Shown piece by piece: positions 9,255-64,000 of a DNA stretch of 64,000 nucleotides. This DNA comes from Lacipirellula parvula (GTDB lineage: Bacteria > Planctomycetota > Planctomycetia > Pirellulales > Lacipirellulaceae): contig NZ_AP021861.1 in assembly GCF_009177095.1 (NCBI RefSeq), forward strand, positions 5,686,501-5,750,500. Reading direction: 5' to 3'. A model generated the notes under the pieces. It was given only the letters and a program-made list of their open reading frames with translations. It ran no database searches and had not been told where the DNA came from. The position numbers and the translations under genes were made by a program. Within the stretch, counting starts at the first letter, position 1, and each line of letters opens with the position of its first letter.

Positions 9255-9266
9255 TAATTACAGCAG

Positions 9267-15041: not shown

Positions 15042-15064
15042 AATCCTCCGCGATTCATACCGCC

Positions 15065-15844: not shown

Positions 15845-15872
15845 CGCCCCGCGCTGACGATTGACTAAAGAA

Positions 15873-47400: not shown

Positions 47401-48303
47401 GGAGGCGCGGGTCAACACGAAGCCGCCGACCAAGGCGCCGGCAAAGCCGAAGAGCAAGGCGAAGGCGAGACCGGCACGAACGGCGGCAACCAACAACAGG
47501 CCGACGGCAAGACGGGCCAATCAAGCGGCGATCAACCCGGCAACGGCAGTGAGCAAGGCGAGACCGGCGAGAACCAACCGAGCGAGGGAGCTCAGCAACC
47601 TGGCGAGCAAGGCGGGCAATCGCCATCAGCCAGCGGACAGCAAAATTCCGGCGAGACTGGCGAGCAGCAGCCGCAACCGAACGAACAGCCGAGCGGCGAC
47701 CAACCCGAAGGTAGCCAGCAGCCTGGCGGACAATCGGGCGGCGGCGGGCAGCAGTCTTCCAACGAATCGAAATCCGAAGGCGAAAAGCCGGGCGATCCCG
47801 CCGACAAACAACAGCCGAACAACTCAAAGGGAACTGGCGGCTCGCAACCGATCGGCGGCGGCACCGGCTCGAACGCCATGAGCTCGCCCTCGACCGAGAG
47901 CGGCCAACTCGGCGCCGACGATCCGAACCTTGCCTACGCCAAGAAGCAGACTGACTTGGTGCTCGAACGACTCGACGAACAACTCGCCAAGAAGCAAGTC
48001 GATCAAACGCTGCTGAAGAAACTCGGTTGGACCGAGGATGAGTTGCAACGCTTCGTCGACCGCTGGAAGAGCCTCAAGGCCAGCGCCGCCGGCGAAGGCG
48101 AAGCAGCCACCGAGGCGAAGCAAGAACTGGACGACACGCTCCGCAATCTACTGCCGCGCAGCAACGGCCCGCTAAAATTCCGCGGCCAAGCAAAGGCTGA
48201 CGACTTGCGTGCGAACGACGCGACGCGCGTCAAACCGCCGTCGGAATACGCCGACCGCGTCCGCGAGTACACGAAGGGAATTTCGTCTCAACGCAAGGAT
48301 TGA
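44497..48303 (+). CDS. Giant membrane protein with ~590-residue Gln/Gly/Glu/Ser-rich tract (DUF4175-like)
   Basis: 1268 residues from ATG 44497 (44470 possible). The N-terminus has three likely membrane helices (~27-52, ~60-78 and LLRLGYALLAVITVCALYALL ~165-187). Residues ~190-530 are Ig-like or beta-rich (KPGSISVARGERVEISAQID; RDPDYGLKRVAIIGKAND), with DUF4175 resemblance. Residues ~532-1125 are almost only Gly, Gln, Glu, Ser, Asn, Ala, Lys in short imperfect repeats (GEQGGQGGGG, GQSGEQSGGG), ending in a helical domain (LGADDPNLAYAKKQTDLVLE...) and a basic C-terminus. Cytoplasmic or secreted placement of the tract is undecided. Neighbours give no function. Confidence 0.85.
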   Translation: MSTIAPPPLPPNPALANSEGYIDEQIRRTRRALKLLDLGAGLLTLTIGLLAFVLVGALLDHWIIPGGLNVAGRATLFALMLAGLAWYGWRQFIPLLKPINPVYAAQTIEQNAPSLKNSLLNLLLFRSHRNDLSARVYHALEQQTAAKLSKASLEASIDRSALLRLGYALLAVITVCALYALLSPKSLGLSTVRVLAPWSDVTPPSRVQILDVKPGSISVARGERVEISAQIDGLSGNEPVRLRYSTADEQTVDESIRMERPSPEARRFTGFLPRGTDSGVMQDLTYWLEAGDARTEKFTLSVFERPTIVVQKIHYDYPRYTGLPPKEAVQNGDVKGLDGTEVTIDALASQPIKTASVDFEADGTNDLTMTFNGDRATAKFKLGFRGNSPTPLHPKYALRFTTADGRTNADPTVHSIEVTRDLGPEISITDPEEKEQVARVSDLLTIGVEARDPDYGLKRVAIIGKANDKPEQPLFEMLDKIHTGRFGAIKTYTPGELGLKPGDLLEYWAVAEDSRPEANTAFTDHHRLKIIGPDKPQAGQQPPKNGGQQQPDNKQGGENGEQGGQGGGGGQGGESGGDGEAQAGEGGSSGGQGESGESQGEKQEGQGGAGGGAGENESGESQESSDKAGENGGGGSGGEGEQSSENQSSQGNSQGSNSGQSGGKEQQSSNGESKPGENGEQGEAGGEQSKVASGGEDDGTAFQRMAEHMGEQEGAGEGKPNPSQQGQGQQTEQAQAGESAGEQGEQNDTPQQGAESAQRTNGQGGQQQKPQAGAAGKQQEGATADEAQDAANQTNQGEQNGESPEQSSTGAAQGSQKGSNQKPQADGAQPQGPNEKATGTEQKTNGAGDNPSKREGANTPQEAKPGDGNPEDQKAGQEPGSDSEMNRNNGNSGSGHSAGEKEGAPGNDQSMRQGRDKQDEDNRPGQDDNEPPSGSGDKKESNSKGGQSGEQSGGGQQGAGQKADAAGKGGAGQHEAADQGAGKAEEQGEGETGTNGGNQQQADGKTGQSSGDQPGNGSEQGETGENQPSEGAQQPGEQGGQSPSASGQQNSGETGEQQPQPNEQPSGDQPEGSQQPGGQSGGGGQQSSNESKSEGEKPGDPADKQQPNNSKGTGGSQPIGGGTGSNAMSSPSTESGQLGADDPNLAYAKKQTDLVLERLDEQLAKKQVDQTLLKKLGWTEDELQRFVDRWKSLKASAAGEGEAATEAKQELDDTLRNLLPRSNGPLKFRGQAKADDLRANDATRVKPPSEYADRVREYTKGISSQRKD

Positions 48304-51050: not shown

Positions 51051-51677
51051 CTAGGCGAATATCGCCGCCACTTGCACTTCGAGGTCTGGGCATGCAAGCG
51101 GCGCTACGTAATCTCCCAAGCCGAACGTCTGCTCAAATTCGTAGCCGGCCGCCGCTGGTTGTCTGAAGACCTGTAACTTCTTCTCAGTCAGATCCACAAT
51201 CCAGTATTCCTGAATGCCCGCCTGAGCGTAAATCTCTCGCTTCACATGGCGGTCTCGCTTCAACGAGCTTGCCGCGCATTCGACGATGAGCTTCACATCC
51301 ATCGCCGTCGGTAACGCGCGGCTGTACCCCTCCGGCTTCCGCTGGAGCAAAGCAAAGTCCGGATCGAAGACGTGACCTTCGGTCAGGACAAGCGTCCCTT
51401 GCGATTGCAGCTTAAACCTGTCGATAACTTTCGTGAAAATCTCGTTCAGCTCGACAACGGAACTATTGTGATCGGGTCCGGCAGGCGCCATCGGAGTGAT
51501 TACCCCTCCAATAAGTTCCACCTTTTGCGACGAGTCGAAAATCCCAGCACTGATCATCTGAAGATACTGCTCTGTCCTCAGCGGAGCGACCGGCAGTTTG
51601 ATGACGCCCACTCCTGGCGGGCCAACGTGCGTGGAATAAGCGCTGCTCATAGCTCGCATTTTAGAGTGAATCGACAA
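51051..51677 (-). CDS. Uma2-family (DUF820) putative restriction endonuclease-like protein
   Basis: 208 residues (a start at 51650 would remove nine). PD-(D/E)XK-like Uma2 family: KVELIGGVITPMAP (acidic), HVFDPDFALLQ (Asp) and DVKLIVECAASSLKRDRHVK (E-x-K), then YAQAGIQEYWIVDLTEKKLQVF, the strongly conserved family tail. Uma2 genes are abundant in planctomycetes and cyanobacteria, with unknown biological role. It is the last chromosomal-style gene before the integrated element. Confidence 0.9.
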   Translation of the reverse strand: MSIHSKMRAMSSAYSTHVGPPGVGVIKLPVAPLRTEQYLQMISAGIFDSSQKVELIGGVITPMAPAGPDHNSSVVELNEIFTKVIDRFKLQSQGTLVLTEGHVFDPDFALLQRKPEGYSRALPTAMDVKLIVECAASSLKRDRHVKREIYAQAGIQEYWIVDLTEKKLQVFRQPAAAGYEFEQTFGLGDYVAPLACPDLEVQVAAIFA

Positions 51678-51790
51678 CCGTCACAAACTGAGCTTTCCCC
51701 GCCCTGCTCCCCCAGCAACCGACAAATTCTACCCCGCAGCCGAACCTTGCCCCTCAGTCGGGCGTAGCCCCTGGTCTATGCTGGCACACA

Positions 51791-51867
51791 GTGAAATATG
51801 CCTCATTTTAGGCACCATTTCACGGTAAAAAGCCAGCTTGGCAATAAACTGGGCAATAAAAGCTGGC
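51791..51867. promoter_or_regulatory. Dyad and repeats ahead of the integrase (candidate control or attachment region)
   Basis: Imperfect dyad at 51791-51823: outer arms GTGAAAT/ATTTCAC and inner arms GCCT/AGGC. Next to it, GCCAGCTT (51832-51839) and AAGCTGGC (51860-51867) are a perfect inverted pair that encloses two direct copies of GGCAATAAA (51840-51848 and 51852-51860). The block lies 38-114 bp upstream of the integrase start and is A/T-rich relative to its surroundings. Confidence 0.55.
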
Positions 51868-51904
51868 CTATGCTTCCAGAAACACCAGTTTTGACGGGTG
51901 AATC

Positions 51905-53071
51905 ATGGGCCGACGCAAGGGCACGCATAACAACGGGTACTTCTACCGCACCGGCCGCGGATGGCATGCCGTGGTGGATGGCAAGTTCGTACCGTTGGAG
52001 TATGAGAACGGCGACCGCATGAGGGACCGGAAGGCCTCCACCGCTGAACTTAAAGCAGCCCACAAACGTGCCCTGGATCGCAAGCCGGAGGACATGATCA
52101 AGCCGGACCGGGTCACCGTCTTGGAGGTCTGCAAGGCATACCTTGAGCAGGTGAAATCCGAGGGAGCTGAAGGCACCTACAACAATCGCTCGCGCACGCT
52201 GTTCGATTTCTGCTTTGGCCTCCCGTCACGGTTCCTTGGTGACGACAGGCCGAAAGCCAAGACGAGCGACTACATCCACGACGGCTACGGCAAGCTGGCG
52301 GTGACATCGCTAAAGAAGTTCCACTTGAACAAGTGGCTGCAAGCGCACCCGAATTGGAAAGGGGCCAAACGATCTTACATCCAGGCGGTACTACGCGCGT
52401 TCAACTTCGCGGTCGAATCCGGGATGATCGAGGCGAACCCGGTCAAGGGCTACAAAATCCCCAAGCAAAACGCCCGGGTCACCTACATCACGCCGGAGCA
52501 GGAAAAAGCACTCTGCGACGCTGCCAATCCCTCCCTGAGAATGGCCCTACAGGTCTGTATCCGCACGGGGGCGCGTCCAGGTTGCGAATTTGCCAAACTA
52601 ACGGCCGCGCACGTCGATGATCAGGGCGACCGCATGACTTGGACGTTTAAGCCAGAGGAAAGCAAAACCAAGTCACTGCGAGTGATTCGCATCACCGATC
52701 CCGAGACGTTGAAGATTGTTCGCGAGCAAATGCGAAAACACCCGACAGGGCCAATTTTCCGTTGCGAGTCAGGCGACCCATGGCGCAGGGACAATCTCGC
52801 CGATCAATTTCGATACTGGAAAAAGAAGCTCAGCACAGACAAGATCGTCAAAGGCGAAGTGGTGCGGAAGGCGATTACCTTCGACAAGGATGCCGTCATG
52901 TACAGTTGCCGGCACACCTACGCGAAGCGGGTCCTCCAAGGCTACTGGAGCGGCAAGGCGACCAATATCGAGACGCTCGCCAAGCTGATGGGGAACACGC
53001 CCCAGATTTGCCGCGACCACTACCTGCAATGGTGCGACCACTACAGCGAACCTCTCTGGGACAACGCCTAG
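51905..53071 (+). CDS. Tyrosine-type site-specific integrase
   Basis: 388 residues. N-terminal core-binding SAM-like domain (~70-200, NRSRTLFDFCFGLPSRFL ... LNKWLQAHPNWKGAKRSYI) and C-terminal catalytic domain (~205-385). Catalytic Arg in CIRTGARPGCEFAKL, box II as MYSCRHTYAKRV (the Arg is present but the usual His three residues before it is Tyr), and nucleophile Tyr in CRDHYLQW. It should integrate and excise the downstream element. It is the first gene of a region with different codon use and tight gene spacing. No tRNA gene is adjacent. Confidence 0.93.
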   Translation: MGRRKGTHNNGYFYRTGRGWHAVVDGKFVPLEYENGDRMRDRKASTAELKAAHKRALDRKPEDMIKPDRVTVLEVCKAYLEQVKSEGAEGTYNNRSRTLFDFCFGLPSRFLGDDRPKAKTSDYIHDGYGKLAVTSLKKFHLNKWLQAHPNWKGAKRSYIQAVLRAFNFAVESGMIEANPVKGYKIPKQNARVTYITPEQEKALCDAANPSLRMALQVCIRTGARPGCEFAKLTAAHVDDQGDRMTWTFKPEESKTKSLRVIRITDPETLKIVREQMRKHPTGPIFRCESGDPWRRDNLADQFRYWKKKLSTDKIVKGEVVRKAITFDKDAVMYSCRHTYAKRVLQGYWSGKATNIETLAKLMGNTPQICRDHYLQWCDHYSEPLWDNA

Positions 53072-53550
53072 CGCTTGAACCGGCTCGGATCGAATCCCGG
53101 AACGGTCGACGTTGGCGGCGGCACGCGACGTTGAGACGGCGACCGCTTCACACCGGTCGGATTGTTCGCCTGCAAGTATTCGTCGAGCCATTCGCGTCGG
53201 AACTTAATCGGCCCGTTCCCATTCTGAACGAAGCGAATCTGCCCGGCCTTCACGACTTTGCGTAGGCCCGCCGGCTTGTAACCAAGCAACTCCGCGGCCG
53301 TTGCCAAGTCGATCAGCGCATCAGGTTCGGATTTTTCAGAAATCGCCGCGATGCAATGGGCGACGTAGCACTTGGCGGCATTCACGTCCACGTCTGGCAC
53401 CGGGGCGCGGACCAATTCGCCGTGCCCTGCCCTGGCCATCAGACTTGAGACCTCGCCGACGATGGCGGCCGCGCGGTGGCCCTGCCACTGGCCGAGCGGG
53501 TCAGCTTCATAGATGGCGTCGAGTTCAGTCAGGTACTTGGTGAGGGTCAT
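53068..53550 (-). CDS. Excisionase-like DNA-binding protein
   Basis: 160 residues, convergent with the integrase (3' ends overlap by 4 nt). A helix-turn-helix of the excisionase/MerR (HTH_17) kind is at residues ~82-130: LIDLATAAELLGYKPAGLRK, then a wing VQNGNGPIKFRREWLDEYLQ. The N-terminal half is helical; the C-terminus is basic and Pro-rich. The context next to an integrase supports a recombination directionality factor. Its start overlaps the stop of the gene at 53547 by ATGA. Confidence 0.75.
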   Translation of the reverse strand: MTLTKYLTELDAIYEADPLGQWQGHRAAAIVGEVSSLMARAGHGELVRAPVPDVDVNAAKCYVAHCIAAISEKSEPDALIDLATAAELLGYKPAGLRKVVKAGQIRFVQNGNGPIKFRREWLDEYLQANNPTGVKRSPSQRRVPPPTSTVPGFDPSRFKR

Positions 53551-53819
53551 GGTACGAGCCCCAACTCGACGGCGAGCATCACGGTAGCGACCGCCGCGAG
53601 CGTCTTTGTATGTTTGTAGGTGAGCCGGTCGACCGTCAGCGACTTCGGCGGATTCCCAGCCTTCGTTTTGGCTTCAATATGCCGCACATGGGGGTGGCGA
53701 AGGATCGTGCGGTAGTGCTTCGCCACAACGGCCTTGAACGACAAGTTTTTGCGTCTCGCCTCGTCTCGAAAGAGCCGGCGGACCTTCGCGACAACGGGTG
53801 CAATCGGGACTTCGACCAT
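53547..53819 (-). CDS. Small basic protein, unknown function
   Basis: 90 residues, very Lys/Arg/His-rich with RLFRDEARRKNLSFKAVVAK and IEAKTKAGNPPKSLTVDRL. Its stop overlaps the start of the excisionase-like gene (ATGA), so the two are translationally coupled. A hairpin with a T-run lies in its leader (53851-53872). May be nucleic-acid binding by charge; no family seen. Confidence 0.6.
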   Translation of the reverse strand: MVEVPIAPVVAKVRRLFRDEARRKNLSFKAVVAKHYRTILRHPHVRHIEAKTKAGNPPKSLTVDRLTYKHTKTLAAVATVMLAVELGLVP

Positions 53820-53850
53820 AAGACCTCAGAGAAGAGTAGAAACGAAAAAA

Positions 53851-53872
53851 GGCAACGCTTTGAAGCGTTGCC
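53851..53872 (-). terminator. Terminator-like hairpin in the 5' leader of the excisionase operon
   Basis: Inverted pair GGCAACGCTT/AAGCGTTGCC, followed on the minus strand by TTTTTTCG, 32-53 nt upstream of the first minus-strand start (53819). It can end incoming minus transcription or attenuate the excisionase transcript. On the plus strand there is no T-run. Confidence 0.6.
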
Positions 53873-54065
53873 TATAGCTCAAGGCTACACGCGCTGCGGC
53901 CGGGTGCTGGCAAATTCGACCGAGAAATTCCCGTATCAATCGGTTAACGGTGGCCTACGACTCATGCAAGCGTCACAATTAACGACTGCTGGCATCGGCA
54001 GGAATTTGGTCCAGTGTGTTGCATTTCTTCAACGCATGCGTTTACAATCCCGACCGGAGGCTCGA

Positions 54066-54674
54066 ATGGTACGAATACTATTGGCTGTTTTTATCGGACT
54101 TGTGGCAGTGCCGTGCGGGGCTGAAGAGATTCCGCTCAAGAGCATTTGGTCCTGGGGATTACCCGATACGCAGCTCGTGACGGACATCGACCCCGTCGTT
54201 GTCGAGGAAGTGAAGAAAGTCCCCATCCGGAATGCAATGACTCCTCTGGTTGTCGCCGCCGGACTCGGAGACAAATCTCTCACTTACAAATTTGTAGGTG
54301 CGATGAAAGCACTCGACGGAAAGCCCGGCTTTGCCGTCCCTGGTCACGCGACTGAGGCATTGCGGAATGCTGCCAATACGCCTCTGGATGCGATACCTGA
54401 CACGCTCCCGGCGGGTAATGTGACGTTGGTGTTCAGTTCTCCGCGAACGGCAGACAAGCTAAGCATCCAGAAAGTGGTACGGACTGGCAATAAAATCGAG
54501 ATTCAATACGGCCTTGCATCGCGAGGCGGTCATTTTGTCGACAGCGACTACTTCGCACTGATCCCGCTAGGTGAACTCCGCCCCGGTAAGTATGACGTTG
54601 CGATTTCTACGGAGCAGAAGCCCCGCCGCTCAGCTCAGCACATATCGAAGCCGTTCTCATTTACAGTGGAGTAA
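54066..54674 (+). CDS. Secreted hypothetical protein, first gene of subtilase pair
   Basis: 202 residues with a clear signal peptide (MVRILLAVFIGLVAVPCGA). The mature part is alternating beta-type: NAMTPLVVAAGLGDKSLT, AGNVTLVFSSPRTADKL, and a C-terminal GELRPGKYDVAISTEQK. No domain recognised. The next gene, a subtilisin-like protease, starts 4 nt after the stop, so the two are almost certainly co-translated. Such pairing suggests a partner such as a chaperone or inhibitor, which is inference only. Confidence 0.72.
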   Translation: MVRILLAVFIGLVAVPCGAEEIPLKSIWSWGLPDTQLVTDIDPVVVEEVKKVPIRNAMTPLVVAAGLGDKSLTYKFVGAMKALDGKPGFAVPGHATEALRNAANTPLDAIPDTLPAGNVTLVFSSPRTADKLSIQKVVRTGNKIEIQYGLASRGGHFVDSDYFALIPLGELRPGKYDVAISTEQKPRRSAQHISKPFSFTVE

Positions 54675-54678
54675 ATCG

Positions 54679-56406
54679 ATGAAATACATTCTGCTGGTCC
54701 TGCTGTTACCAACTGCCGCGTTCGGCAGCGAACTCTCTATCGGCCCCATCGGCATCAATTCCGCGGGGCTGCGAGGTCCTGGTAACGAACCGCTCAATGG
54801 GGCCGGCGTGAAGATTGGACTAACAGAATTTCTTCGCCCTGCCGACCCAGACGTTGATAGTGCATCAGGTCTTCCCAATAGTACCGTCAACCCCACCCAA
54901 GTCACTCTTCAAAGGGCAGCGCCCACCCCAGGCGATATTGGTCCTCTTCCTATCCCGCCCAACTTTGACATTTACAGTCATTCGACCTATGTCGCCAGTG
55001 TGATGATTGGCACCAACGGCGGAGTTTCACAAGGCGCGGAACTATACGCGGACGGATTTATCACTGATGACTACGATGACCAGTTACTATCGCAACAATT
55101 CATCGCCAGAGTTGGATTAGGAACTGAGCATCCGATGCGAGTGATTAACGCAAGCTGGGGAAATGACGTTGAACAACCCAGCGCGACCCAGCTGTCGAAC
55201 GGCTTCGATTGGATTGCTTCAAGGTACGATGTTCTCAATGTCATGGCGCTAAATGATGAGGAAGCTCCCGACGCTGATGTTCCGGGTACAAGCTTGAACG
55301 GAATTACAGTCGCCGCCTCTCAGAGAGTTGATGGCACTGGAGACTACAGGCAGCAGGTGAATGGGGATGTTGACTACAACCTTGAAGTAAATGAAGTCGA
55401 GCTAATCGCTCCCGGCGTCGGGATTCAGGTCTTCGGACTCAACAACATGTCAAGCAGTCGCGATGGCAGTAGCTATGCAGCCCCGCATGTCGTTGGCACT
55501 ACTGCGCTGTTGCATCAATACGCGAATTTGGAACTCGCACGCCCAGGGACTACTTGGGATAGCACCGCCGCGCATCGACACGAAGTGATGAAAGCTGTGC
55601 TATTGAACTCGGCAGACAAGCTCGCTGGCGTCAACGGATCGACTCGTACCGTTGTCGACTTTGCAGGTTTTTCGTGGGAGGATTCGATAGCAAAAGACGA
55701 CCCTCAAACCCCTCTAGACCCGTATTTCGGCGCAGGTCACTTGAATGCTAAGCGGGCGGTGCAACAGTTCAGCGCGGGGCAGCAGAGTGCGTCGATCGCG
55801 CCACTGGGATGGGCGTACAATGAGACGGCCGGGTTGGGTACTTTTCACACATACACCTTCAGCGAAACACTATCAGGCGACGTGTCCATAACGCTGGCCT
55901 GGGACGCATTTGTCGACAAGGCCGGCCCTAGCGAGTCGATTTATGGCACGGGCGACATTTTCTTTGGGGCAATGACCGATAATCTTGAACTCTACCTCCT
56001 GCCAGTTGGGTGGACATCGTTGGCGCAGGCAGTGGGTGAGTCCTCCAGCCCCGTTTCAAACGTCGAACACATCTTCGTTCAAGACATTCCTAGCGGCGAC
56101 TACGAAATCCTCGTCCATCAAGTCGACGGGAACGATCGAAAGTACGGACTGGCTTGGTGGTTTGGAGACGGCCCCGTCGATGTTCCAGGCGACTTTGATA
56201 AGGATGGCGACGTTGACCAGGATGATTTAGGCGAGTGGAAGTCTGGCTTCGGCACAACCTACGACGGGGCCGACTTCCTTGACTGGCAGCGGAACTACGG
56301 GACCACGTCCGTTGCCAGCGTACCGGAGCCGTCCACGCTAATACTCAGCGTGCTAGGCCTCGCTGCTCTTTGCCGGCGACGGTCCTCTAACAGCATGGCT
56401 AGCTAG
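54679..56406 (+). CDS. Subtilisin-like S8 serine protease with dockerin-like segment and PEP-CTERM tail
   Basis: 575 residues. Signal peptide MKYILLVLLLPTAAFG. S8 catalytic region: His in YSHSTYVASVMIG, oxyanion Asn in VINASWGND, and Ser in DGSSYAAPHVVGTTAL. At the usual Asp box the sequence reads GVKIGLTEFLRPADPD, with no standard DTG/DSG. A C-terminal DGDVDQDDLGEWKSGFG segment resembles a calcium-binding dockerin-like repeat, and VPEPSTLILSVLGLAAL with basic end is a PEP-CTERM sorting signal. Exported and sorted protease carried in an integrated element. Confidence 0.88.
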   Translation: MKYILLVLLLPTAAFGSELSIGPIGINSAGLRGPGNEPLNGAGVKIGLTEFLRPADPDVDSASGLPNSTVNPTQVTLQRAAPTPGDIGPLPIPPNFDIYSHSTYVASVMIGTNGGVSQGAELYADGFITDDYDDQLLSQQFIARVGLGTEHPMRVINASWGNDVEQPSATQLSNGFDWIASRYDVLNVMALNDEEAPDADVPGTSLNGITVAASQRVDGTGDYRQQVNGDVDYNLEVNEVELIAPGVGIQVFGLNNMSSSRDGSSYAAPHVVGTTALLHQYANLELARPGTTWDSTAAHRHEVMKAVLLNSADKLAGVNGSTRTVVDFAGFSWEDSIAKDDPQTPLDPYFGAGHLNAKRAVQQFSAGQQSASIAPLGWAYNETAGLGTFHTYTFSETLSGDVSITLAWDAFVDKAGPSESIYGTGDIFFGAMTDNLELYLLPVGWTSLAQAVGESSSPVSNVEHIFVQDIPSGDYEILVHQVDGNDRKYGLAWWFGDGPVDVPGDFDKDGDVDQDDLGEWKSGFGTTYDGADFLDWQRNYGTTSVASVPEPSTLILSVLGLAALCRRRSSNSMAS

Positions 56407-56580
56407 CGTGTCAGGCTAGGCCGGATAAATATGACTTACTTATCCACAATTGATTAAAAAACCGCGATTTTCGTCTGGATAGGGCTGCAAGTGGCGTGCC
56501 AAAAAGGTCCCCGCTTCAGTCCCAAAATTTGACCCAGCCGTCCATTATTCCCCGGCTCGGCCCGTCGCTCGCCGCTTTCC
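56407..56580. promoter_or_regulatory. A/T-rich spacer with a perfect DnaA box
   Basis: A perfect TTATCCACA at 56440-56448 lies within A/T-rich sequence; nearby cggataa (56422-56428) and a diverged tggatag (56478) are weaker similar sites. One perfect box could be chance. Confidence 0.4.
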
Positions 56581-57102
56581 TCAGAACTTAAGCGAGGATA
56601 CACGGTCCAGGTCCACACCTAGACCTTGCAAGTAGATACTTGTCGTCGCGATGCGAGCATGCCCTAGCTGGCGGCTGACCAGGGATACATCCTTGGTTTC
56701 ATCGAACACCTGACAGGCATGGCCGTGCCTGAAGGCATGAGCATGCGTCTCCACGCCGGCACGCTCACCGAGCGTCTTCAAGAGCCGTCTGACGTGGCTA
56801 GTGGCCAAGCGCTCGCCCGTTCTGGTAGCGAAGATGAAGTCATCGCCGCTAGCGCCACGCTTGGCCAGCCATAGCTCCCAATGCCCGTAGCTGGTCGCTA
56901 GCGCGATCGTACGGGACTTCCGCCCCTTACCGCAGCGAACCGTCAGCCGGTCGCTTTCCACGTCGCTTGCTCGCAGGTCGAGGGCTTCAGCACACCGCAG
57001 CCCGCTGTGGAAGAGCAGGTCGAGCAACGCCCGATCTCGCACCGCCGTGGGCTTAGTGGCTCGAATCAGGGCCTTCACTTCGTTCGGGGTGATTGTCTTC
57101 AT
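56581..57102 (-). CDS. Minimal tyrosine recombinase (catalytic domain only)
   Basis: 173 residues from ATG 57102 (a TTG at 57120 is also possible). All six catalytic positions of the family are visible: Arg in HSGLRCAEALDL, Lys in CGKGRKSRTIAL, HxxR in HAHAFRHGHA, His in RQLGHARIATT, and Tyr in SIYLQGLG. There is no N-terminal core-binding domain, unlike the 388-residue integrase at 51905. Resembles Xer-type recombinases; may resolve multimers or invert DNA in the element. Opposite strand to its neighbours. Confidence 0.9.
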   Translation of the reverse strand: MKTITPNEVKALIRATKPTAVRDRALLDLLFHSGLRCAEALDLRASDVESDRLTVRCGKGRKSRTIALATSYGHWELWLAKRGASGDDFIFATRTGERLATSHVRRLLKTLGERAGVETHAHAFRHGHACQVFDETKDVSLVSRQLGHARIATTSIYLQGLGVDLDRVSSLKF

Positions 57103-57206
57103 TGTTACGGGTCCGATCAAAGTAGTAACAAAATGTCCGGTTATTCAAGCATATACGCGCCGGTTCCGAGTCGACGCCGGAAAGCGTAACAAAAAAGGAG
57201 ATTTGA

Positions 57207-57644
57207 TTGGCCAATATTAACGGTTCTGCGCCCTCGCACAGAGTCTGGGAATTCCGCTCGGAGTCCGCCACCTGGATCGCGTGGTCATCCGGCTACGATC
57301 CGCCGCAACCTGCCGCCGGCTCCGCGGCCGCGATCGCGATGGCAGACCTGAAGGTCTGCCACGAGTTGGCCCCGTCGAGCATGCTCGACCGGACCGCGGC
57401 AATTGCCCTCGCCCGGCTGCTGCGGGCCATTCGACGCGGTGAGGGCTTGGAGGTCCTCGCCGGCAGGGCGTACGCGGGCGCGGGTCCACACCCGCGGGCG
57501 TGCTTGGGGTTCCGATCGATCCGGGCGGCGGCGGCGGCGACGGGTTTGAGTCGCCGCCAAATATGCCGATTGTGCGGATTCCCCGGTTACAGCGGTCGAA
57601 ATGGCCGCAAAATCGGACCAGACTGCCAAAATGGCACGCCCTGA
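57207..57644 (+). CDS. Possible hypothetical protein with HTH-like end
   Basis: 145 residues from TTG 57207, favoured by a good Shine-Dalgarno (AAGGAG at 57195-57200, 6 nt spacer). The only recognisable part is near the C-terminus, SIRAAAAATGLSRRQICRLCG, helix-turn-helix-like. Competing frames on both strands overlap it; this one has the best start signal. Low certainty. Confidence 0.4.
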   Translation: MANINGSAPSHRVWEFRSESATWIAWSSGYDPPQPAAGSAAAIAMADLKVCHELAPSSMLDRTAAIALARLLRAIRRGEGLEVLAGRAYAGAGPHPRACLGFRSIRAAAAATGLSRRQICRLCGFPGYSGRNGRKIGPDCQNGTP

Positions 57645-57813
57645 ACAAAATCGTCAACCGCGCGAGGCAGAGTGCGCACATTGTGAATTTCTTCACACTC
57701 TCGCCGCGTCAAATGTACTATTTGGGTCTTTTTTTAGATTTAGATGCCGCTAGAACGGCATCCCGAGCGTATTACATATAGCCAAAATAGAGACTTTTCT
57801 GACCGGGTCCTAT
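57645..57813. promoter_or_regulatory. A/T-rich leader with hairpins
   Basis: Contains TGTGAA-tttc-TTCACA (57680-57695) and GATGCCG-ctagaa-CGGCATC (57742-57761), a T7 run near 57730 and several A/T blocks. It may be the promoter and regulatory region of the gene at 57814. Confidence 0.4.
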
Positions 57814-58608
57814 ATGTGCTTTTCTCGCCGAAATTTCTGGCCACTGCGGCGTCCCGTGCGAATTACCAGTATCGCCTCACCCTGGAGAACCACGTTGCTG
57901 ACCTCTACCGACCCACTCACACTGCTACGATCCGTCGCCGCCTGTCCGTGCAAGGCTAACAAGAGGGCGTTGCTGCGATCAATCGAGTCCAATTGGCTAC
58001 CAGCAACTGCCAGCCGTTTCCGCGTCAAGGCGGCGTCGCCTCTGAGTGTGGAGGAACTGGTCCAGGCCTCAATGGTCGATGTTTATCGAGCCGTCTATAG
58101 ACTCCTGGGGAAGCCCTACGCGAAGCCCGCTCATTTCAGGGCTGATATCGGCCAGATCGCCATTAAGGCGATGACGCGAGCCGCAGACGACCAGCGACCT
58201 AGCGGCATCGGAGTCACCGCCGGCGCTCGTTATCAGCGGCGACGGCGGGGCACGGCGGAGACTCGGTCGAGCGATCCGACGACGGAGAGACTCTCCGCCA
58301 ACTACTCGCCGCGGAGACTGTCGCGAGGCCGGACGGACGCGGAGCATGATTTTCTCGACTGGTTCTGGGTGGCGGTCGACGATCAAGTCGCCGACTGGCT
58401 GGAATGGGAGGCTATCCTCCTCATAGCCGCCGAACCGGCATTCGGCGTCGGCGAATGGGGGAGGCCGAACGTCGCCGCGGTCGCTCGATATCTGGGCGTC
58501 GAGCCCGCTTTTCTCCGCGAGCGACTGAAAAGACTCGGCCAGCGGGTCGCGGCGGCATGCGACAACCCAGTACGCAAAAAAATCTTGGAAAAGTTGCTGG
58601 ATTTCTGA
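57814..58608 (+). CDS. Hypothetical protein, element-encoded, with possible C-terminal HTH
   Basis: 264 residues from ATG 57814 (TTG 57894 possible). A mixed N-terminus, a helical middle (LSVEELVQASMVDVYRAVYR, ADIGQIAIKAMTRAADDQRP), an Arg-rich linker, then WVAVDDQVADWLEWEAILLI and NVAAVARYLGVEPAFLRERL, which reads like a winged-helix or sigma region 4-like end. Precedes the candidate origin and replication gene; a replication or transcription-control role would fit but is inference. Confidence 0.6.
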   Translation: MCFSRRNFWPLRRPVRITSIASPWRTTLLTSTDPLTLLRSVAACPCKANKRALLRSIESNWLPATASRFRVKAASPLSVEELVQASMVDVYRAVYRLLGKPYAKPAHFRADIGQIAIKAMTRAADDQRPSGIGVTAGARYQRRRRGTAETRSSDPTTERLSANYSPRRLSRGRTDAEHDFLDWFWVAVDDQVADWLEWEAILLIAAEPAFGVGEWGRPNVAAVARYLGVEPAFLRERLKRLGQRVAAACDNPVRKKILEKLLDF

Positions 58609-58762
58609 CCACTTTTCGGGGAAGTGTCAGAAGGACATAGGTAGGAGAAGGTCTGTCTCCACTCATCGCGACGCCGCTTGAATTGGCCGACTTGATCCCA
58701 CCCGATGTTGGTCGCTCAACGGCCAATAAGGACGTACATCGCCGATTAACGCGGCGAAAACA

Positions 58763-58862
58763 ACACATGCGCACATAAGACACATCCAGACAACCCTGCG
58801 CTGAAAAACGACGTTTTTACCCGTAGGACCCTCTGCATGTGCGTCATGTGCGCATGTGTCGT
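58763..58862. other. Iteron-like candidate replication origin
   Basis: A perfect 14-bp inverted pair ACACATGCGCACAT (58763-58776) and ATGTGCGCATGTGT (58846-58859), a symmetrical AAAAACGACGTTTTT (58804-58818), and three near-direct 9-bp repeats of the (G/T)CATGTGCG kind at 58835-58861. The block sits in the 319-bp gene-free space directly before the PriCT-2/helicase gene. Origin function is inferred from repeats and position. Confidence 0.5.
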
Positions 58863-58927
58863 TTACGACGCGGCAACAACTCAAACTGGCACTCAGGTAG
58901 CTCCCGAGTCGCCTCCTACCTGCCATC

Positions 58928-60712
58928 GTGCATCGCACCCGCGGTGGCAGGTCTTTTCTACTTCTCCTGGGTGCGATGAGGTGCGTTTTGTCAGAGATAC
59001 TTGATCCCTGCGTGGCCGTTGAAGCCTCGCAGGCGCGGGAGATTCTCCCGCTGCTGCCGCCCGAGTCGGCTAGCGTCTACTCGACATGGCGGTCAGTCGC
59101 CGCCGGCCTTAAGGGCATCGGCGACCCGACCTTATACAAAGACTTCTACGACTGGTCGCGGCAGGCGGCCAACTTCGGCGGCTGCCGCGAACTTTGGGAC
59201 GGTCTCACCGGCACCGGCCTCGCCGGCCTCCTGAAGGTCGCCGAACAGTTCGGCGTCCGTCCGCAGAGCACAGGTCGCAAACCCTGTCTCCGCCTGACTC
59301 CCGAGCTGGATACCGTCATTCCCGCTTTGGAGGCGATCGCAGCCAAAGCTGACGGGGTCTACCAGCGTGGCGGTCTTGTCGCTCTAAGTCGGGACGTTGA
59401 CCCGCCGGCCAACTCAATCGTCGCGAGCACGTCGACTAAAACAATCACGCTACGCTCGCAGGCGTTGCCGGAGCGGCTCGCGCAAATCGCCAACTTCGAG
59501 AAGTGGTCTGCGCAAAAAAGGGACTGGATACGATGTTCGGTCAGCCAAGACTTGGCGAATCAACTCGTCGCGCGCGGCTACTGGCCGAACGTCCCGAAGC
59601 TCAGCGGCATCGTCCCGTCAGCAGTGCTGCTGCCGGATGGCTCGATCCTCACGACTCCCGGCTACGATAAGGAGTCCGGCCTCTATCTTGACAGCCAAGA
59701 CAAATACCCGGCGATGCCGTCCGTTGCGGACGCGGTCGACTTGATCAACAGCGTCGTTGTCGACTTCCCATTTGAATCGCCGTGCCATCAAGCGGCATGG
59801 GTCGCGATGCTACTGAGTCTGTTCGGTCAGTATGCCTGCGGTGGCAACGCCCCGCTGTTCCTGATCGATGCGAACGTCTGCGGCTGCGGCAAAGGATTGC
59901 TGGTAGATGCCGCACTCGGAATCTACGACTCGCATACCGCTGGCAAGGTGGGCGCGCCGACGAACGACGACGAATGGCGCAAACTTATCAGCACGATCGC
60001 AGCACAGTCGTGGTCATACGCAGTCTTTGACAATGTCGTAGGCCGCTTCGGCGGGTCTTCCTTCGAGCGCGCGTTGACGACGACTCGTTGGCAGGATCGT
60101 CGACTCGGCCTCAACGAGGACATCGACATGCCCCTGCACGTCATTTGGGTCGCGACCGGCAATAACTGCCACCTCGCGTCCAAAGATATGGCGCGCCGCA
60201 CGGTCCATATCCGCCTTGAGTCGCCGCTAGAAAATCCACAGCTTCGCACGACGTTCGTCCACTCGAACCTGCTCAAGTACGTCCGCGAGAATCGCACGAC
60301 TTTGGCGATGGCCGCGCTGGCGATCCTCAAAGGTTACGTCGACGCCGGCAAGCCGAATCAACTGCCCGACATCGGCTCATTCGCCGAATGGTCTGGGCTC
60401 GTTCGCTCCGCCGTCGTTTGGGCGGGGTGGACCGATCCTTGCGTGTCGAGCGCGCGGCTCATCGAAGACGATGAGGGTACGCAGCTCCTACGCGAGCTGC
60501 TCAACGCCTGGCCGGGACCATCCACGTCGGCGGAAGCGGTTAGCTTAGCCGCCGAAGACGCCAAGCTGCGACTAGCAATCGAGTCCGTCACCGGTGGCAG
60601 ATACAACAGTCAAGCGCTTGGGGTCTTCCTCCGAAGCGTGAAGAAAACAGTCGTCGACGACAAGCGCTTTGTTCCCGCGCCTGGGCGTCGATGGCAAGTG
60701 GAGAAAATATGA
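58928..60712 (+). CDS. PriCT-2/helicase-type replication protein
   Basis: 594 residues (the start could also be 58976). Residues ~40-100 match a primase C-terminal (PriCT-2) domain: LPPESASVYSTWRSVAAGLK and YKDFYDWSRQAANFGGCREL. A helicase/ATPase part follows (~300-500) with Walker A-like DANVCGCGKGLLVDAALGI, FDNVVGRFGG as a possible Walker B region, and ATGNNCHLASKDMARRTVHI as sensor-type end. The usual N-terminal primase-polymerase domain is absent. Probably the initiator/helicase of the element. Its stop overlaps the next gene by ATGA. Confidence 0.8.
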   Translation: MHRTRGGRSFLLLLGAMRCVLSEILDPCVAVEASQAREILPLLPPESASVYSTWRSVAAGLKGIGDPTLYKDFYDWSRQAANFGGCRELWDGLTGTGLAGLLKVAEQFGVRPQSTGRKPCLRLTPELDTVIPALEAIAAKADGVYQRGGLVALSRDVDPPANSIVASTSTKTITLRSQALPERLAQIANFEKWSAQKRDWIRCSVSQDLANQLVARGYWPNVPKLSGIVPSAVLLPDGSILTTPGYDKESGLYLDSQDKYPAMPSVADAVDLINSVVVDFPFESPCHQAAWVAMLLSLFGQYACGGNAPLFLIDANVCGCGKGLLVDAALGIYDSHTAGKVGAPTNDDEWRKLISTIAAQSWSYAVFDNVVGRFGGSSFERALTTTRWQDRRLGLNEDIDMPLHVIWVATGNNCHLASKDMARRTVHIRLESPLENPQLRTTFVHSNLLKYVRENRTTLAMAALAILKGYVDAGKPNQLPDIGSFAEWSGLVRSAVVWAGWTDPCVSSARLIEDDEGTQLLRELLNAWPGPSTSAEAVSLAAEDAKLRLAIESVTGGRYNSQALGVFLRSVKKTVVDDKRFVPAPGRRWQVEKI

Positions 60713-61164
60713 ACAAATACAAACCCCTGACCGACGAACAACATGTCGCTTTCGCGACCATGCTCAGAAAGGCTTGGCAAACCTTAGCAGGCAGCCACCT
60801 GCCGCTCGCGCCATTGACCGACGCCAAGCTCCGCCTGCAAGACAAGCTTGTCTTGTTGGCTGGTAAGCTTGCCAACGAGTCCGGCCACCATGTCCTCTAC
60901 GACATCAGCTTCCCAGTGCCATCACGTCCAGTTTTGACGATCGAAGATCATCGGCAACTCGGCGAAAGCCTCTACTTTGCCCGCAACTCACTCTTCCGGC
61001 TTCTGAACTGCTACCCGAAGCAGAACACCATCACCCGGCGATTGAGTTCGCTCATCGACGGTTTTGATCGGCTGCGTTGCAAGCTCGATAGCTACGTCGC
61101 CGGCAAATGGCCCGGGGAGTTCGATCCGAGCATTTACTACCCGGCGGCGAGGCTGGCAGCGTGA
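60709..61164 (+). CDS. Hypothetical protein, coupled to the helicase gene
   Basis: 151 residues from ATG 60709, overlapping the stop of the replication gene by 4 nt (ATGA). Helical throughout, with FATMLRKAWQTLAGSHLPLA and SSLIDGFDRLRCKLDSYVAG. No known domain. Its own stop overlaps the GTG of the next gene. Probably part of the replication module. Confidence 0.7.
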   Translation: MNKYKPLTDEQHVAFATMLRKAWQTLAGSHLPLAPLTDAKLRLQDKLVLLAGKLANESGHHVLYDISFPVPSRPVLTIEDHRQLGESLYFARNSLFRLLNCYPKQNTITRRLSSLIDGFDRLRCKLDSYVAGKWPGEFDPSIYYPAARLAA

Positions 61165-61358
61165 AAACAGTAGTCATTACCTACCATCCCAGCTCCAACA
61201 CCTTCGACTTTGTCGCCGATCGTCCTTACCTTCACGCCGACCATTATCACGCCAGACTCTGGCTCCGTGGCGACGGCCTCCCACGCCGCCGCATCCGCGA
61301 GCTGTTGCAAATCGCGTTCGTGCTCGGCCATCTCGGCGAAAGTCTAATCATCAAGTAA
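61161..61358 (+). CDS. Small hypothetical protein
   Basis: 65 residues from GTG 61161, which overlaps the previous stop (GTGA). Contains several His (HADHYHARLWLR) and a hydrophobic end IAFVLGHLGESLIIK. Third gene of the coupled chain; no family seen. Confidence 0.6.
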   Translation: MKTVVITYHPSSNTFDFVADRPYLHADHYHARLWLRGDGLPRRRIRELLQIAFVLGHLGESLIIK

Positions 61359-61382
61359 ACGCGAAGATCGCATCCTTCGCGG

Positions 61383-61660
61383 GCCGCCGTCGCCTAGCTA
61401 GACGGCGGCGGCCATTTTGTAAACGCGGGTGTTTGGTCACCCCGCGGGCAGCGCCCCTGAGCATTACCCTCAAGGAACTGGGGCGCTGCTACTTTTCACG
61501 TTCGCTCCCTCGCGCGGGTATTGCGAGGTCGAGGCGATCAGGCGGCGGCACGCTCGCATCGCGTGTCGTCGCCGCTTTAATTCTTGCTCCGTGCTCGCGG
61601 GGTCGAGCACGTCGAGCACAGCCGCTGGCGCGCGGCTAAGAACGGCGCGTCAGCGGCACT
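61383..61660. other. Gene-free structured stretch (series of hairpins)
   Basis: A run of inverted repeats: GCCGCCGTC/GACGGCGGC (61383-61409), GCAGCGCCCC/GGGGCGCTGC (61447-61488), GTGCTC/GAGCAC with a second GAGCAC (61591-61619), and GCCGCTGGCGCGC/GCGCGTCAGCGGC with one mismatch (61621-61657). It occupies the 311-bp gap between translated cascades. Could be a structured RNA, terminator/attenuator series or regulatory leader. Confidence 0.5.
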
Positions 61661-61669
61661 CTTTAACAA

Positions 61670-61993
61670 ATGGAGGTCGCATTGCGACACAACAACAACC
61701 TAGTCGAGTTAAACGGCGGTTCAGCGTGGAAAAACACGGCTACCGGTATCGAGTATCCATTTAGCCCGTCAACCCGCCGAATTCAGTTTTTACTCTGCCG
61801 CGCGGGCTTAGCTCCGCTGCCGCGAGGTTATCGAGTCGACACCACTTTTCGAGTGAAGGGCCCGAACGGCAACTCAATCGAGATTCTGTACGACCAGCAT
61901 CCGGCACTGATGAAAACGTCGATGGAATTTTTATACAGCCGCGAAGCGTCTGCCCAAACACCAAAGGAAGCAAATGACACAACTATTACTTGA
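61670..61993 (+). CDS. Small hypothetical protein
   Basis: 107 residues from ATG 61670. An in-frame TTG at 61682 has a GGAGGT 4 nt upstream and may be the real start. Beta-rich middle with AWKNTATGIEYPFSPSTRRI and GPNGNSIEILYDQHPALM. Overlaps the next gene by 20 nt. No domain recognised. Confidence 0.6.
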   Translation: MEVALRHNNNLVELNGGSAWKNTATGIEYPFSPSTRRIQFLLCRAGLAPLPRGYRVDTTFRVKGPNGNSIEILYDQHPALMKTSMEFLYSREASAQTPKEANDTTIT

Positions 61994-62681
61994 CGCAGGA
62001 CTCCTCTTTAAGGACGGAGCGATCGTTTACGACTTCCAGAAGTCCCGAGGGGACTTCGTCCAGTTGAGATGGAGGGACACACCCGAGAACCGCCAGAAGC
62101 TGGAGGCATTCATCGCCGAACGCGGTCTTGGCCCCTCAGACTTTCGGTTTCCGCGGGAACATCGTGAGGATCGCAGCCTTCGTCAACGAATAGAAGAGGA
62201 TGGCTTGACGACTGTTAGCGACAGTACGCCCCGCAACCGCGCCGACGACATTCGGTCCGCCGTCCACGAGTACGAGGCATCCCGGGGGCGCGAGACGTGG
62301 AAAGAGAAGACGCTTCGTGAAGCCGACGAAGCCGAGGCGGCGGCAGAAGCCGCGCTGTCAGAAGCGGAACGCTATGCGAAACGAGCTGACCAGATTGAGC
62401 ATGCAACGTGGGGCTATCTCCAGCTCGCGTTCTCTGACTGTCCGCAGAGCGAGATGGCCGCTGCACAACGTCGCCTTCAAGTCGCTCGCGAAGGCACCCC
62501 GAAAGAATACGCAGCCGCCGATGCCGAGTATCGCGCGAAAGTCAAAGCCAATGCCGAGTTGGCGAAGGCCAATCTTGAGGGGCAGTTAGCTCAGCAAAAG
62601 GAAGCCTACGAAAAACAAATTCAGTCAGTCGAGTCGACTGCTTGGGTCGACGCCACACCAACACCCCAACAGGAGCCCTAA
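61974..62681 (+). CDS. Coiled-coil hypothetical protein (phage-like)
   Basis: 235 residues with Shine-Dalgarno AAAGGAAG before ATG 61974. A compact N-terminal part (KDGAIVYDFQKSRGDFVQLR) is followed by a long Ala/Glu/Lys coiled coil (~100-215). Stop TAA overlaps the next ATG (TAATG). Position before a collagen-like gene suggests a structural or scaffold-type role, unproven. Confidence 0.65.
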   Translation: MTQLLLDAGLLFKDGAIVYDFQKSRGDFVQLRWRDTPENRQKLEAFIAERGLGPSDFRFPREHREDRSLRQRIEEDGLTTVSDSTPRNRADDIRSAVHEYEASRGRETWKEKTLREADEAEAAAEAALSEAERYAKRADQIEHATWGYLQLAFSDCPQSEMAAAQRRLQVAREGTPKEYAAADAEYRAKVKANAELAKANLEGQLAQQKEAYEKQIQSVESTAWVDATPTPQQEP

Positions 62682-62887
62682 TGCACCCGTTCAAAATTTT
62701 CATCGACGGTGACCTCGTCTCTGCCGTCTCTGACACTGCCATCCTCTTTACCCGCATCCCCACGGCCGAGGCAGTCGAGCGACTCAGCAAGCACATCTCG
62801 ATTGCTGAGGTCGACGACCTGTTCGCAAACTATGACGGCGGGACCGAATTCCGCCGTATCTACTTCCAGCTTAAGAAAGGCACCTAA
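62681..62887 (+). CDS. Small hypothetical protein
   Basis: 68 residues from ATG 62681 (overlapping TAATG). MHPFKIFIDGDLVSAVSDTA ... YFQLKKGT; compact alpha/beta appearance. Its stop overlaps the next start again (TAATG at 62885-62889). Confidence 0.6.
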   Translation: MHPFKIFIDGDLVSAVSDTAILFTRIPTAEAVERLSKHISIAEVDDLFANYDGGTEFRRIYFQLKKGT

Positions 62888-63099
62888 TGTACAACGTCCA
62901 CTACGTCAGCCAACACAATCTACCGACCCCCGGCTACACCTGTCAGGTGACTGGCACCGTCTACACCACTCAGGAAGAGGTCGAGGCCGCCCAAAAGCTC
63001 TTATTCGAGTCGCAAGACACCGTCAACGGCGTCTGGACTCCCCGGCTCCAGTTGTCGCTGGTCGATCGTAAGGCTTTATATGAGGCCTCGCAAGAGTGA
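62887..63099 (+). CDS. Small hypothetical protein
   Basis: 70 residues from ATG 62887. A Tyr/Thr-rich start (MYNVHYVSQHNLPTPGYTCQ) and one helix EEVEAAQKLLFESQD. Coupled on both sides by start-stop overlaps. Confidence 0.6.
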   Translation: MYNVHYVSQHNLPTPGYTCQVTGTVYTTQEEVEAAQKLLFESQDTVNGVWTPRLQLSLVDRKALYEASQE

Positions 63100-63734
63100 T
63101 CCTCACCTACCAATCAGTCGACCAGCTCTGGACCGTCTGCCACTCAGAGCAAATCTTCTGCCACCGGGCGACCAAACCTCAAGCCCTGGCCGCCGTGGTG
63201 GCGGCATTCCCAGAGCTGCCATTGGCCGACATTGAAGCGGCCTTTGAGAATCCTGCCGATCCTCAAACATTCCGAGCCACGCTCCAGGCTGCCACGCAAT
63301 CAACGCTGGCGGCAGTCGAGGATGCGACGGAGCAATTGAGCGAATCGGCTGAGCTGGCTCGTATCAAGGCGCTAGTGACTCTCACCCACGCCGCCGTCAG
63401 CGACATGACGGCGGCAATCGAGCGAGAGAACGACACCCGCGCCGCGGAAACCAAAGTCAACGCCGAGCGGCTCGCCGCCTTCAAGGCGGAGCAAGCAAAA
63501 CAGGCAGCGGCAGCCGAGCAGAAGCGGCTGGCTGTCATTGCTCAGCAACAGCGCAAAGCGGCTGAAGCGGACAAAGCCCGGGACTTGAAAGCAGGTCGAT
63601 TGCGAGATGGGACGGTGGAAGTGACAGAAAATCATTTCACGACAATCGACGGCAACGTGCGGAAGGTCCGGCGAGTGGTGGCTCGCTATGCTGCGGGCGA
63701 GACCCTTCCACCTGGCGTGGAGGCGATGCTGTGA
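63096..63734 (+). CDS. Coiled-coil hypothetical protein
   Basis: 212 residues from GTG 63096 (GTGA overlap). Long Ala/Glu/Lys/Gln coiled coil from ~65 to ~170 (KAEQAKQAAAAEQKRLAVIA), then a short beta-type end TIDGNVRKVRRVVARYAAGE. Stop overlaps the GTG of the next gene. Probably a phage-type structural or tail-associated protein by position. Confidence 0.65.
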   Translation: MILTYQSVDQLWTVCHSEQIFCHRATKPQALAAVVAAFPELPLADIEAAFENPADPQTFRATLQAATQSTLAAVEDATEQLSESAELARIKALVTLTHAAVSDMTAAIERENDTRAAETKVNAERLAAFKAEQAKQAAAAEQKRLAVIAQQQRKAAEADKARDLKAGRLRDGTVEVTENHFTTIDGNVRKVRRVVARYAAGETLPPGVEAML

Positions 63735-64000
63735 AAAGACGTTTTCGGTTCGTCGGCGAATACCGAGACGGCATGCCACTTACCATTGGCGACATTTACA
63801 AGCGCGACGGCGTCGCCTGGATCGTCACCGCGGGTGGGCCCCGGCCCGCTGCCGTCGCGCCAGACCCAAGCGACAGAGGTCCTATTGGGCCGGCTGGAGC
63901 TGATGGCCGAGACGGAGCCCCTGGGCCTGCCGGCATCGACGGCGTTGGCTGGCGGTTCAAGGGAGCTTGGCGGAGCAACGCCGAGTACGTCCCCAACGAC
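63731..64000 (+). CDS. Collagen-like repeat protein, tail-fibre-like (3' end outside the window)
   Basis: Starts at GTG 63731, overlapping the previous stop (GTGA), and stays open to the window edge (90 codons). A short N-terminal part (GDIYKRDGVAWIVTAGG) is followed by Gly-X-Y repeats, GPIGPAGADGRDGAPGPAG, and then WRFKGAWRSNAEYVPND, similar to the carbohydrate-binding/stalk ends of phage tail fibres. Only part of the gene is present, so overall length and function are unknown. Confidence 0.7.
   Translation, partial: MKRRFRFVGEYRDGMPLTIGDIYKRDGVAWIVTAGGPRPAAVAPDPSDRGPIGPAGADGRDGAPGPAGIDGVGWRFKGAWRSNAEYVPND

Follow-up and report, generated by a model that had tools for sequence, protein, structure and literature searches.

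Phage satellites range in size from 7 to 20 kb (PMC13376191) and are typically about one third as long as their helper phages (PMC10803314). The Vibrio phage-inducible chromosomal island-like elements (PLEs) were shown in 2026 to supply their own tape-measure protein (TMP) and other tail parts, giving shorter chimeric tails (PMC12987554), while the capsid-forming phage-inducible chromosomal islands (cf-PICIs) have capsid, portal and terminase genes of their own and use borrowed tails (PMC10690885, PMC12987554, PMC13345588); putative tmp genes occur in some of them (PMC12987554). Here we describe an integrated element, W, that begins in a 64,000-nucleotide stretch (the window) of the Lacipirellula parvula chromosome (NZ_AP021861.1, positions 5,686,501-5,750,500, or G000:C1, in a single-contig genome of 6,922,258 bases); the chromosome was followed to the right of position 64000 as far as position 130,000 of the window scale. 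W is most likely a phage satellite that adds parts of its own to the particle of a helper, a reading we hold with moderate confidence, and we claim no named satellite family for it. In what follows G000 is this genome, own2 to own6 are other elements in the same chromosome, other G numbers are other genomes, and L numbers are single loci or contigs.

Like the PLEs (PMC12987554), W and its ten mapped relatives are integrated and have no recognised capsid gene, and 7 of these 11 elements encode a TMP; PLE tails are shortened (PMC12987554), and the TMPs of the elements are shorter than those of eight phages. They differ in that W has a collagen-like fibre and no TMP, belongs to a different phylum and has no known helper, and in that the PLEs add a tail assembly chaperone and a baseplate hub protein (PMC12987554), unrecognised in the elements studied here. 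The cf-PICIs, too, are satellites whose particles combine components of their own with components from a phage (PMC10690885, PMC12987554, PMC13345588), but here it is the head and packaging genes that are unrecognised. MiniFlayer of Streptomyces has its own fibre/adsorption module, but encodes capsid and packaging functions and does not integrate (PMC10690885). The PICMIs (phage-inducible chromosomal minimalist islands) of Vibrionaceae are likewise small integrated elements that parasitise virulent phages; they have an integrase and replication genes and lack genes for capsid remodelling. At about one eighth of the phage genome, however, they are much smaller, and they integrate by fis and have no particle parts (PMC10803314). 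The open-licence literature (subscription papers and preprints lay outside the search) yielded no paper joining phage satellites with Planctomycetes, and none joining planctomycetes, integrative elements and tRNA.

Extent, gene content and insertion site

The original prediction, made from the window alone, had described the left part of an integrated element that might be a phage, a satellite or a plasmid-prophage, and had proposed a search for its right end beyond 64000. Integration is borne out by the relatives. The ABC permease gene was found in 5/5 same-genus genomes, and four of them (G034, G036, G037, G038) reach the L-aspartate oxidase gene on the other side; G035, whose contig ends before that gene, was left out of the count. 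In 4/4 of the relatives read the ABC genes come after the oxidase gene with no copy of W between them, which speaks against the alternative, also foreseen in the prediction, that the region is conserved in all relatives at this site. In G034 the matches to window positions 51460-51695 and 66143-66276 are separated by 72 bp; in the other three, roughly 0.7-1.5 kb of other DNA lies between the two flank matches. Repeat searches (exact 12-mers; ungapped repeats between the ends) gave no convincing pair, and the ends of W were taken from this empty site. W runs from 51,768 to 66,150 (14,375 bp core to core), 2.15 kb past the end of the window. "Left part" was therefore correct for the window, but W is complete at 14.4 kb and no capsid or conjugation module follows further on; the right end was found, with an attachment repeat of 8 bp only. 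This core, CCCCTGGT, is the sole repeat at the ends of W and lies outside any tRNA gene, and the tRNA and Rfam scans of the 64-kb window gave no match. The target is a conserved non-coding stretch upstream of the ABC-transporter genes (from 66478), and W is a complete integrative element between conserved chromosomal genes. Its contents are as follows, with no strand given where none applies or was assigned.

51768-64000: part of W inside the window (chromosomal end 66150), from the empty site in relatives and core-to-core mapping
51768-51775: left copy of the attachment core; left flank as in the G034 empty site up to the core, right flank from the second copy, 66143-66150
51905-53071, plus: tyrosine-recombinase integrase (phrog_1, E 9.8e-34; 48% identical to the G100 element integrase)
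53068-53550, minus: HTH_17 protein, excisionase-like (Pfam HTH_17, E 2.2e-6; phrog_66 excisionase, E 3.8e-5)
53547-53819, minus: small gene coupled to the HTH_17 gene by reading-frame overlap; no accepted family match
54066-54674, plus: protein predicted to be secreted and paired with the subtilase; own5 and own6 encode relatives
54679-56406, plus: S8 subtilase with a PEP-CTERM motif in its tail (Pfam, E 1.6e-15 and 9e-6); own5, own6 and G009 have related proteins, that of G009 being split
56581-57102, minus: second tyrosine recombinase, catalytic part only (Pfam Phage_integrase, E 5.8e-32)
57207-57644, plus: protein without assigned function, 60% identical to the own3 protein at the same place
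58048-58608, plus (frame open from 57814): probable DNA-binding protein, 52% identical to an own3 protein; weak helix-turn-helix (HTH) matches only
58750-58872: 123-nt imperfect palindrome, candidate replication origin (repeat search; DNA fold z -6.1)
59012-60712, plus (frame open from 58928): PriCT-2 primase-helicase, candidate replicase (Pfam, E 4.3e-7; phrog_29234, E 1.2e-52)
60709-61164 and 61161-61358, plus: two small coupled genes, the second with a relative in own3
61359-61690: GC-rich array of hairpins that separates the replication genes from the virion-part genes (RNA fold z -6.2, 100 shuffles)
61974-62681, plus: 235-aa protein, mostly helical and coiled-coil-like (single-sequence structure model of low confidence, mean pLDDT 57, long helices)
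62681-62887 and 62887-63099, plus: two small coupled genes, the first 55% identical to an own4 gene
63096-63734, plus: 212-aa coiled-coil protein, related to proteins encoded in own3, own4 and a fragment in G036 (single-sequence model, mean pLDDT 71, long helices)
63731-64861, plus (cut by the window end at 64000): collagen-like protein of 376 aa, predicted virion fibre (phrog_5073, E 1.5e-15)
64858-65040 and 65030-65377: two short coupled genes past the window, open reading frames 3' of the collagen-like gene
near 65445-65494: terminator-like hairpin, judged by eye

The gene order foreseen from integrase to collagen-like gene agrees with the reading frames and family matches, and other features of the prediction could be measured: 12 of the 21 adjacent gene pairs share a strand and either overlap or abut, GC content drops from 0.642 and 0.624 in the two 10-kb flanks to 0.582 inside W, and the structured stretch is the hairpin array. 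Right of the terminator-like hairpin are three small reverse genes, then the ABC-transporter genes. Rfam matches at this end of W were at chance level alone, all to one terminator-like hairpin.

The non-coding block at the right junction, 66143-66276 (L003 16143-16276), is conserved in genus relatives, at 85% identity across some 134 bp in G034 as well as in G036, and is without an Rfam match; it might serve the ABC operon as a promoter, a leader or a small RNA.

Sister elements and their virion-part genes

Further elements were found via the collagen-like gene, then via TMP genes; these searches led to ten mapped relatives, four of them in this chromosome. The collagen-like protein matches 3/296 genomes of the order (this genome, G036 and G009), whose other collagen-like loci are further elements, apart from G036:C8, a fragment. 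The tape-measure family PF10145 added two elements in this chromosome; a match to it in G009 (E 8.3e-5, below cut-off) was dropped, as its context resembled a chemotaxis locus. An alignment of three tape measures matched 10/396 genomes, seven of which were inspected (left out were G151, G349 and G062, whose match contains two TAG codons): apart from this genome, four of them have elements in which no capsid gene was recognised (G221, G072, G094, G100), G362 holds a phage with a head protein, and G063 phage-like genes. The eleven mapped elements occupy different sites and measure 13.1-16.5 kb (mean 15,065, SD 989). Their lengths and end repeats are:

W: 14,375 bp; 8-bp repeat
own3: 14,470 bp; 55-bp repeat
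own4: 16,484 bp; 46-bp repeat
own5: 15,310 bp; 46-bp repeat
own6: 15,687 bp; 57-bp repeat with two mismatches
G009: 14,957 bp; 44-bp repeat
G036: 15,794 bp; 56-bp repeat with four mismatches
G221: 13,149 bp; 46-bp repeat
G072: 14,228 bp; 60-bp repeat
G094: 14,947 bp; 42-bp repeat
G100: 16,316 bp; 22-bp repeat

In 9/10 relatives the end repeats overlap a tRNA gene called by ARAGORN; the own3 repeat resembles a tRNA 3' end, with no tRNA called there. This chromosome thus holds at least five such elements (W, own3, own4, own5, own6). A sixth, own2, has helicase and hairpin sequence in common with them and stands outside the repeat-mapped set; it lies in a comM-like gene.

Elements at L016 about 5474-14462 (G000:C1 about 2385474-2394462) and L021 about 1614-17061 split the same comM-like gene in two genus members, and both encode a helicase related to that of W. 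Beside own4, L036 about 4000-12400, which ends at a copy of the own4 tRNA-Arg repeat, appears to be another element with integrase and recombinase. In own3 a reverse-transcriptase gene (L034 449-1444; RVT_1, E 1.3e-13), adjoined by an HTH gene and a membrane-type gene, is perhaps defence cargo.

Each of the eleven elements carries the collagen-like fibre, a TMP, or both. By protein clustering of seven elements, the fibre is found in W, own3, own4, G009 and G036, the subtilase in W, own5, own6 and G009, its secreted partner in W, own5 and own6, the 212-aa coiled-coil protein in W, own3 and own4, the HTH_17-type gene in W, own3 and G036, and the TMP in own4, own5 and own6. The secreted protein and subtilase are most likely a recurrent cargo. 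The G009 relative of the subtilase (L042 4229-6176) is split in two frames and may be broken. The G100 element, whose integrase is the relative of W's, carries a TMP. Replicases differ: a PriCT-2 helicase in W, an AAA_25 type in own3, and in own5 and own6 a primase-like protein related to the replicase of phage L109. Drawn as circular maps, several elements show one common succession, with the replicase followed by a coiled coil, small genes, a second coiled coil, the fibre, the TMP, the secreted protein, the subtilase and a recombinase, and the attachment site falls at different points of this shared order; both statements are our own reading of the maps and not a computed test.

The collagen-like gene is predicted to encode a virion fibre of the head, neck or tail. 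A fibre alignment from own3 and G036 reached 26 related loci in IMG/VR, of which 8 were examined. Profiles confirmed portals in 4/4 contigs checked (L151, L153, L155, L158); in the first three of these the matching collagen-like gene lies directly 3' of the portal (in L151 a head-tail adaptor comes next), and in L158 the match lies further downstream while another collagen-like gene is directly 3' of the portal. The fibre also matches phrog_1289, "portal protein" (E 6.7e-4), and phrog_1289 in turn matches collagen-like genes beside portals in phages. "Tail fibre", the label of phrog_5073, was not accepted as settled, as the free-phage relatives adjoin the portal. Small stand-alone proteins resembling the C-terminal part of the fibre occur in G036:C43, where a major head protein is encoded two genes away, and, in settings judged by eye to be prophage-like, in G047 and G016; the one in G047 has a weak similarity to a phage cement protein (E 0.0098, under the Pfam cut-off). 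The fibre of W itself had no relative in IMG/VR by single-protein search, and neither the fibre nor the subtilase gave a match in phage records.

TMPs occur in 7/11 elements (own4, own5, own6, G221, G072, G094, G100). The 930-aa protein of own4 matches 11 tape-measure families (best E 1.8e-21), and 7/7 element TMPs have no stops in the called frame; in G221 the alignment match reads through one TAA, the called frame being open. The dN/dS values, which are rough since dS is high, are 0.13 (own4/own6) and 0.18 (own5/own6), with dS of 1.7 and 2.3 in these usable pairs and saturation in the third, against 0.20 for a phage TMP pair; the sister TMPs are, on these coding-sequence comparisons, evidently under purifying selection. 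Element TMPs are 770-1085 aa long and those of 8 phages 863-1999 aa (Mann-Whitney p 0.009, relatedness ignored). A single origin of the element TMPs was rejected: the tree needs at least three element/phage changes (with caveats of long branches and uneven composition), which implies that TMPs have been exchanged repeatedly. L109, a free phage contig, encodes a TMP of the own4/own5/own6 type, with 55% identity from end to end, as well as a replicase that shows 51-54% identity to the replicases of own5 and own6. Phages and prophages of this group (L109, L110, L134, G063, L112) share homologous TMPs with the elements, and L109 and L112 encode a replicase related to that of own5 and own6; unlike the elements they have further tail genes, with a major head protein in G362 (L134), G063 and the L112 record. 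In the G094 element a 176-aa protein (L136 7266-7796) is 30% identical to an L112 protein encoded between head and tail-tube genes, and is perhaps a further borrowed or donated tail part.

Candidate cis-acting sequences and neighbouring DNA

The replication gene of W would, by family match, be the PriCT-2 helicase. Just upstream of it lies the palindrome, with two 61-nt arms that are 75% complementary. An iteron-like origin, as originally predicted, was not upheld: a repeat search of 56300-59100 gave five two-copy families and no iteron array. The helicase has relatives on 20 plasmid records (26-30% identity among the matches listed). In phage records 60 have matches, all below 60% identity and at about 23.5-28.4% among the matches listed, which is uninformative; a single-protein search gave no relative in IMG/VR, while a helicase alignment reached 7 viral contigs, L058 having terminase-like neighbours by eye only, and a scan of genome contigs gave 4 loci, one examined further.

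The hairpin array is a candidate cis-acting signal. It has a 13-15-nt exact motif in common with each of own2, own3 and own4, and at the like place own2 and own4 share 94 nt at 94% and own2 and own3 34 nt at 94%. With 15 shuffles each, the fold z at this place is low in W, own2, own3, own4, G009 and the G009 L020 element, and merely -2.1 in G036 and -0.2 in L021. Hairpins were rejected as a general mark of the elements, their strong-hairpin density in the 11 elements not being above that of 6 control stretches, one of which also had 3 strong hairpins in 320 nt.

A sigma-factor role for the protein at 58048-58608 is unsupported, given its weak HTH matches only; sigma-factor families do occur among proteins of other elements. 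Outside W, AT skew is extreme (0.64-0.65) over 2 kb at 46000-47999 of the window, in an otherwise balanced region, and a tRNA-Pro gene followed by an integrase and an HTH gene at 77220-79693 of the window scale (L004 7220-9693) may be a further element lying 11 kb to the right.

A probable satellite that would supply particle parts, and rival explanations

Of the three possibilities named in the original prediction the satellite fits best, because there are eleven like-sized elements without recognisable capsid, portal or terminase; mobilisation by a helper is our inference. W has the general features of a satellite, namely an integrase, defined ends, a replication gene (by family match) and a size of 14.4 kb. 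The mean length of the elements is one third of the 45,389-bp record of L109, which may be incomplete and whose role as a helper is not established. As had been predicted, there is no capsid, terminase or conjugation gene among the family matches of W proteins: no capsid, portal or terminase family was accepted among the Pfam and PHROG matches listed, the head matches being weak (scaffold family E 0.04, head protease E 0.23), and there was no relaxase or other mobilisation or conjugation family. Among 95 proteins of seven elements and 47 of the other four, no head or packaging family appeared in the best 25 of 66 and 25 of 33 PHROG families, respectively; "tail fiber" families were weak among the 47 (best E 9.3e-6). 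This protein set excluded recombinases, fibres, TMPs, subtilases and any protein crossing a border of the fetched sequence. The PF05065 capsid is represented by none in this genome or G009 and by one in G036. Hallmarks of PICIs, P4 and cf-PICIs (P4 sid/psu, PICI packaging-redirecting proteins) were absent from the PHROG and Pfam matches of W, no dedicated models having been run.

Several points weigh against the satellite. No helper, excision, packaging or transfer has been demonstrated; distant or small capsid and packaging proteins could escape the searches; and since the elements were found via fibre and TMP genes, the presence of one or the other in all eleven is not independent evidence. 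W has no TMP, the three TMPs of this genome lying elsewhere (own4, own5, own6), and a fibre alone is no proof of a role in a virion. The attachment repeat of W is 8 bp, against 22-60 bp in the ten other elements. The head protein of L134, a candidate helper lineage, occurs in 0/7 element-bearing genomes and in neither the L109 nor the L110 record (14.7 of 45.4 kb of L109 were read), and queries with the G100-type integrase and with a two-row W/G100 alignment found no packaged copies in IMG/VR.

W might instead be an integrative plasmid-like element that moves without phages (by a relaxase in trans, competence or other means) and carries phage genes as cargo. The integrase and replicase of its own, the lack of head genes and the helicase relatives on plasmids would suit this, but no relaxase or mobilisation family was found among its protein matches, and the recurring virion parts and narrow length range would go unexplained; we consider it unlikely. 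Quite unlikely is also a set of decayed prophages that have lost capsid and packaging genes and kept some virion genes. Fibre and TMP are indeed virion genes, the TMP neighbour in G094 is related to a phage protein of the head-tail region and the G009 subtilase is split, but eleven elements would have to show the same kind of loss at like size with mostly perfect end repeats, and their open TMP frames under apparent purifying selection, excisionase-like genes and replicases speak against decay.

That W is an autonomous small virus, whose capsid and packaging proteins are too divergent to be recognised, appears decidedly improbable: many small proteins are unassigned, two W proteins are modelled as long coiled coils without known role and 87% of PHROGs have no function, but W has no second large ATPase besides the helicase, its largest unassigned protein (235 aa) is mostly helical, and the sister TMPs imply a tail whose other parts are unrecognised in the elements. 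An anti-phage island, whose fibre and TMP would decoy or poison tail or head assembly in an invading phage, seems very improbable. Tail assembly and TMP are known targets of defence (PMC10884400, PMC11364771), and the own3 reverse-transcriptase gene could be such cargo; a replicase, an excisionase-like gene and a narrow length would not be needed for this function, and W has no TMP.

As a satellite, W would excise by means of its integrase and HTH_17 protein when a tailed phage infects, and would replicate from the palindrome upstream of the helicase gene. Helper machinery would package it into the helper capsid, and the collagen-like fibre may become part of the particle at its head, neck or tail. 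Sister elements would contribute a tape measure, in place of the fibre or together with it, giving a chimeric helper/satellite particle. The secreted protein and subtilase could aid entry or release, or provide a trait useful to the host.

A broader proposal, which we put forward tentatively and at somewhat less than even chance, is that the order carries widespread satellites of about 15 kb that specialise in the parts with which a particle meets or enters the next cell (collagen fibre, TMP, perhaps a secreted protease) and obtain head and packaging from virulent helpers. They would be the mirror image of the capsid-forming PICIs and a source of chimeric particles that arose independently of the PLEs, with at least five in this one chromosome, at different sites, and modules exchanged among them and with phages. 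If true, satellites would extend to a further phylum, and the elements with fibre only, TMP only or both would form a natural series for asking why satellites replace particle parts, the benefit of which is left open for the PLEs (PMC12987554).

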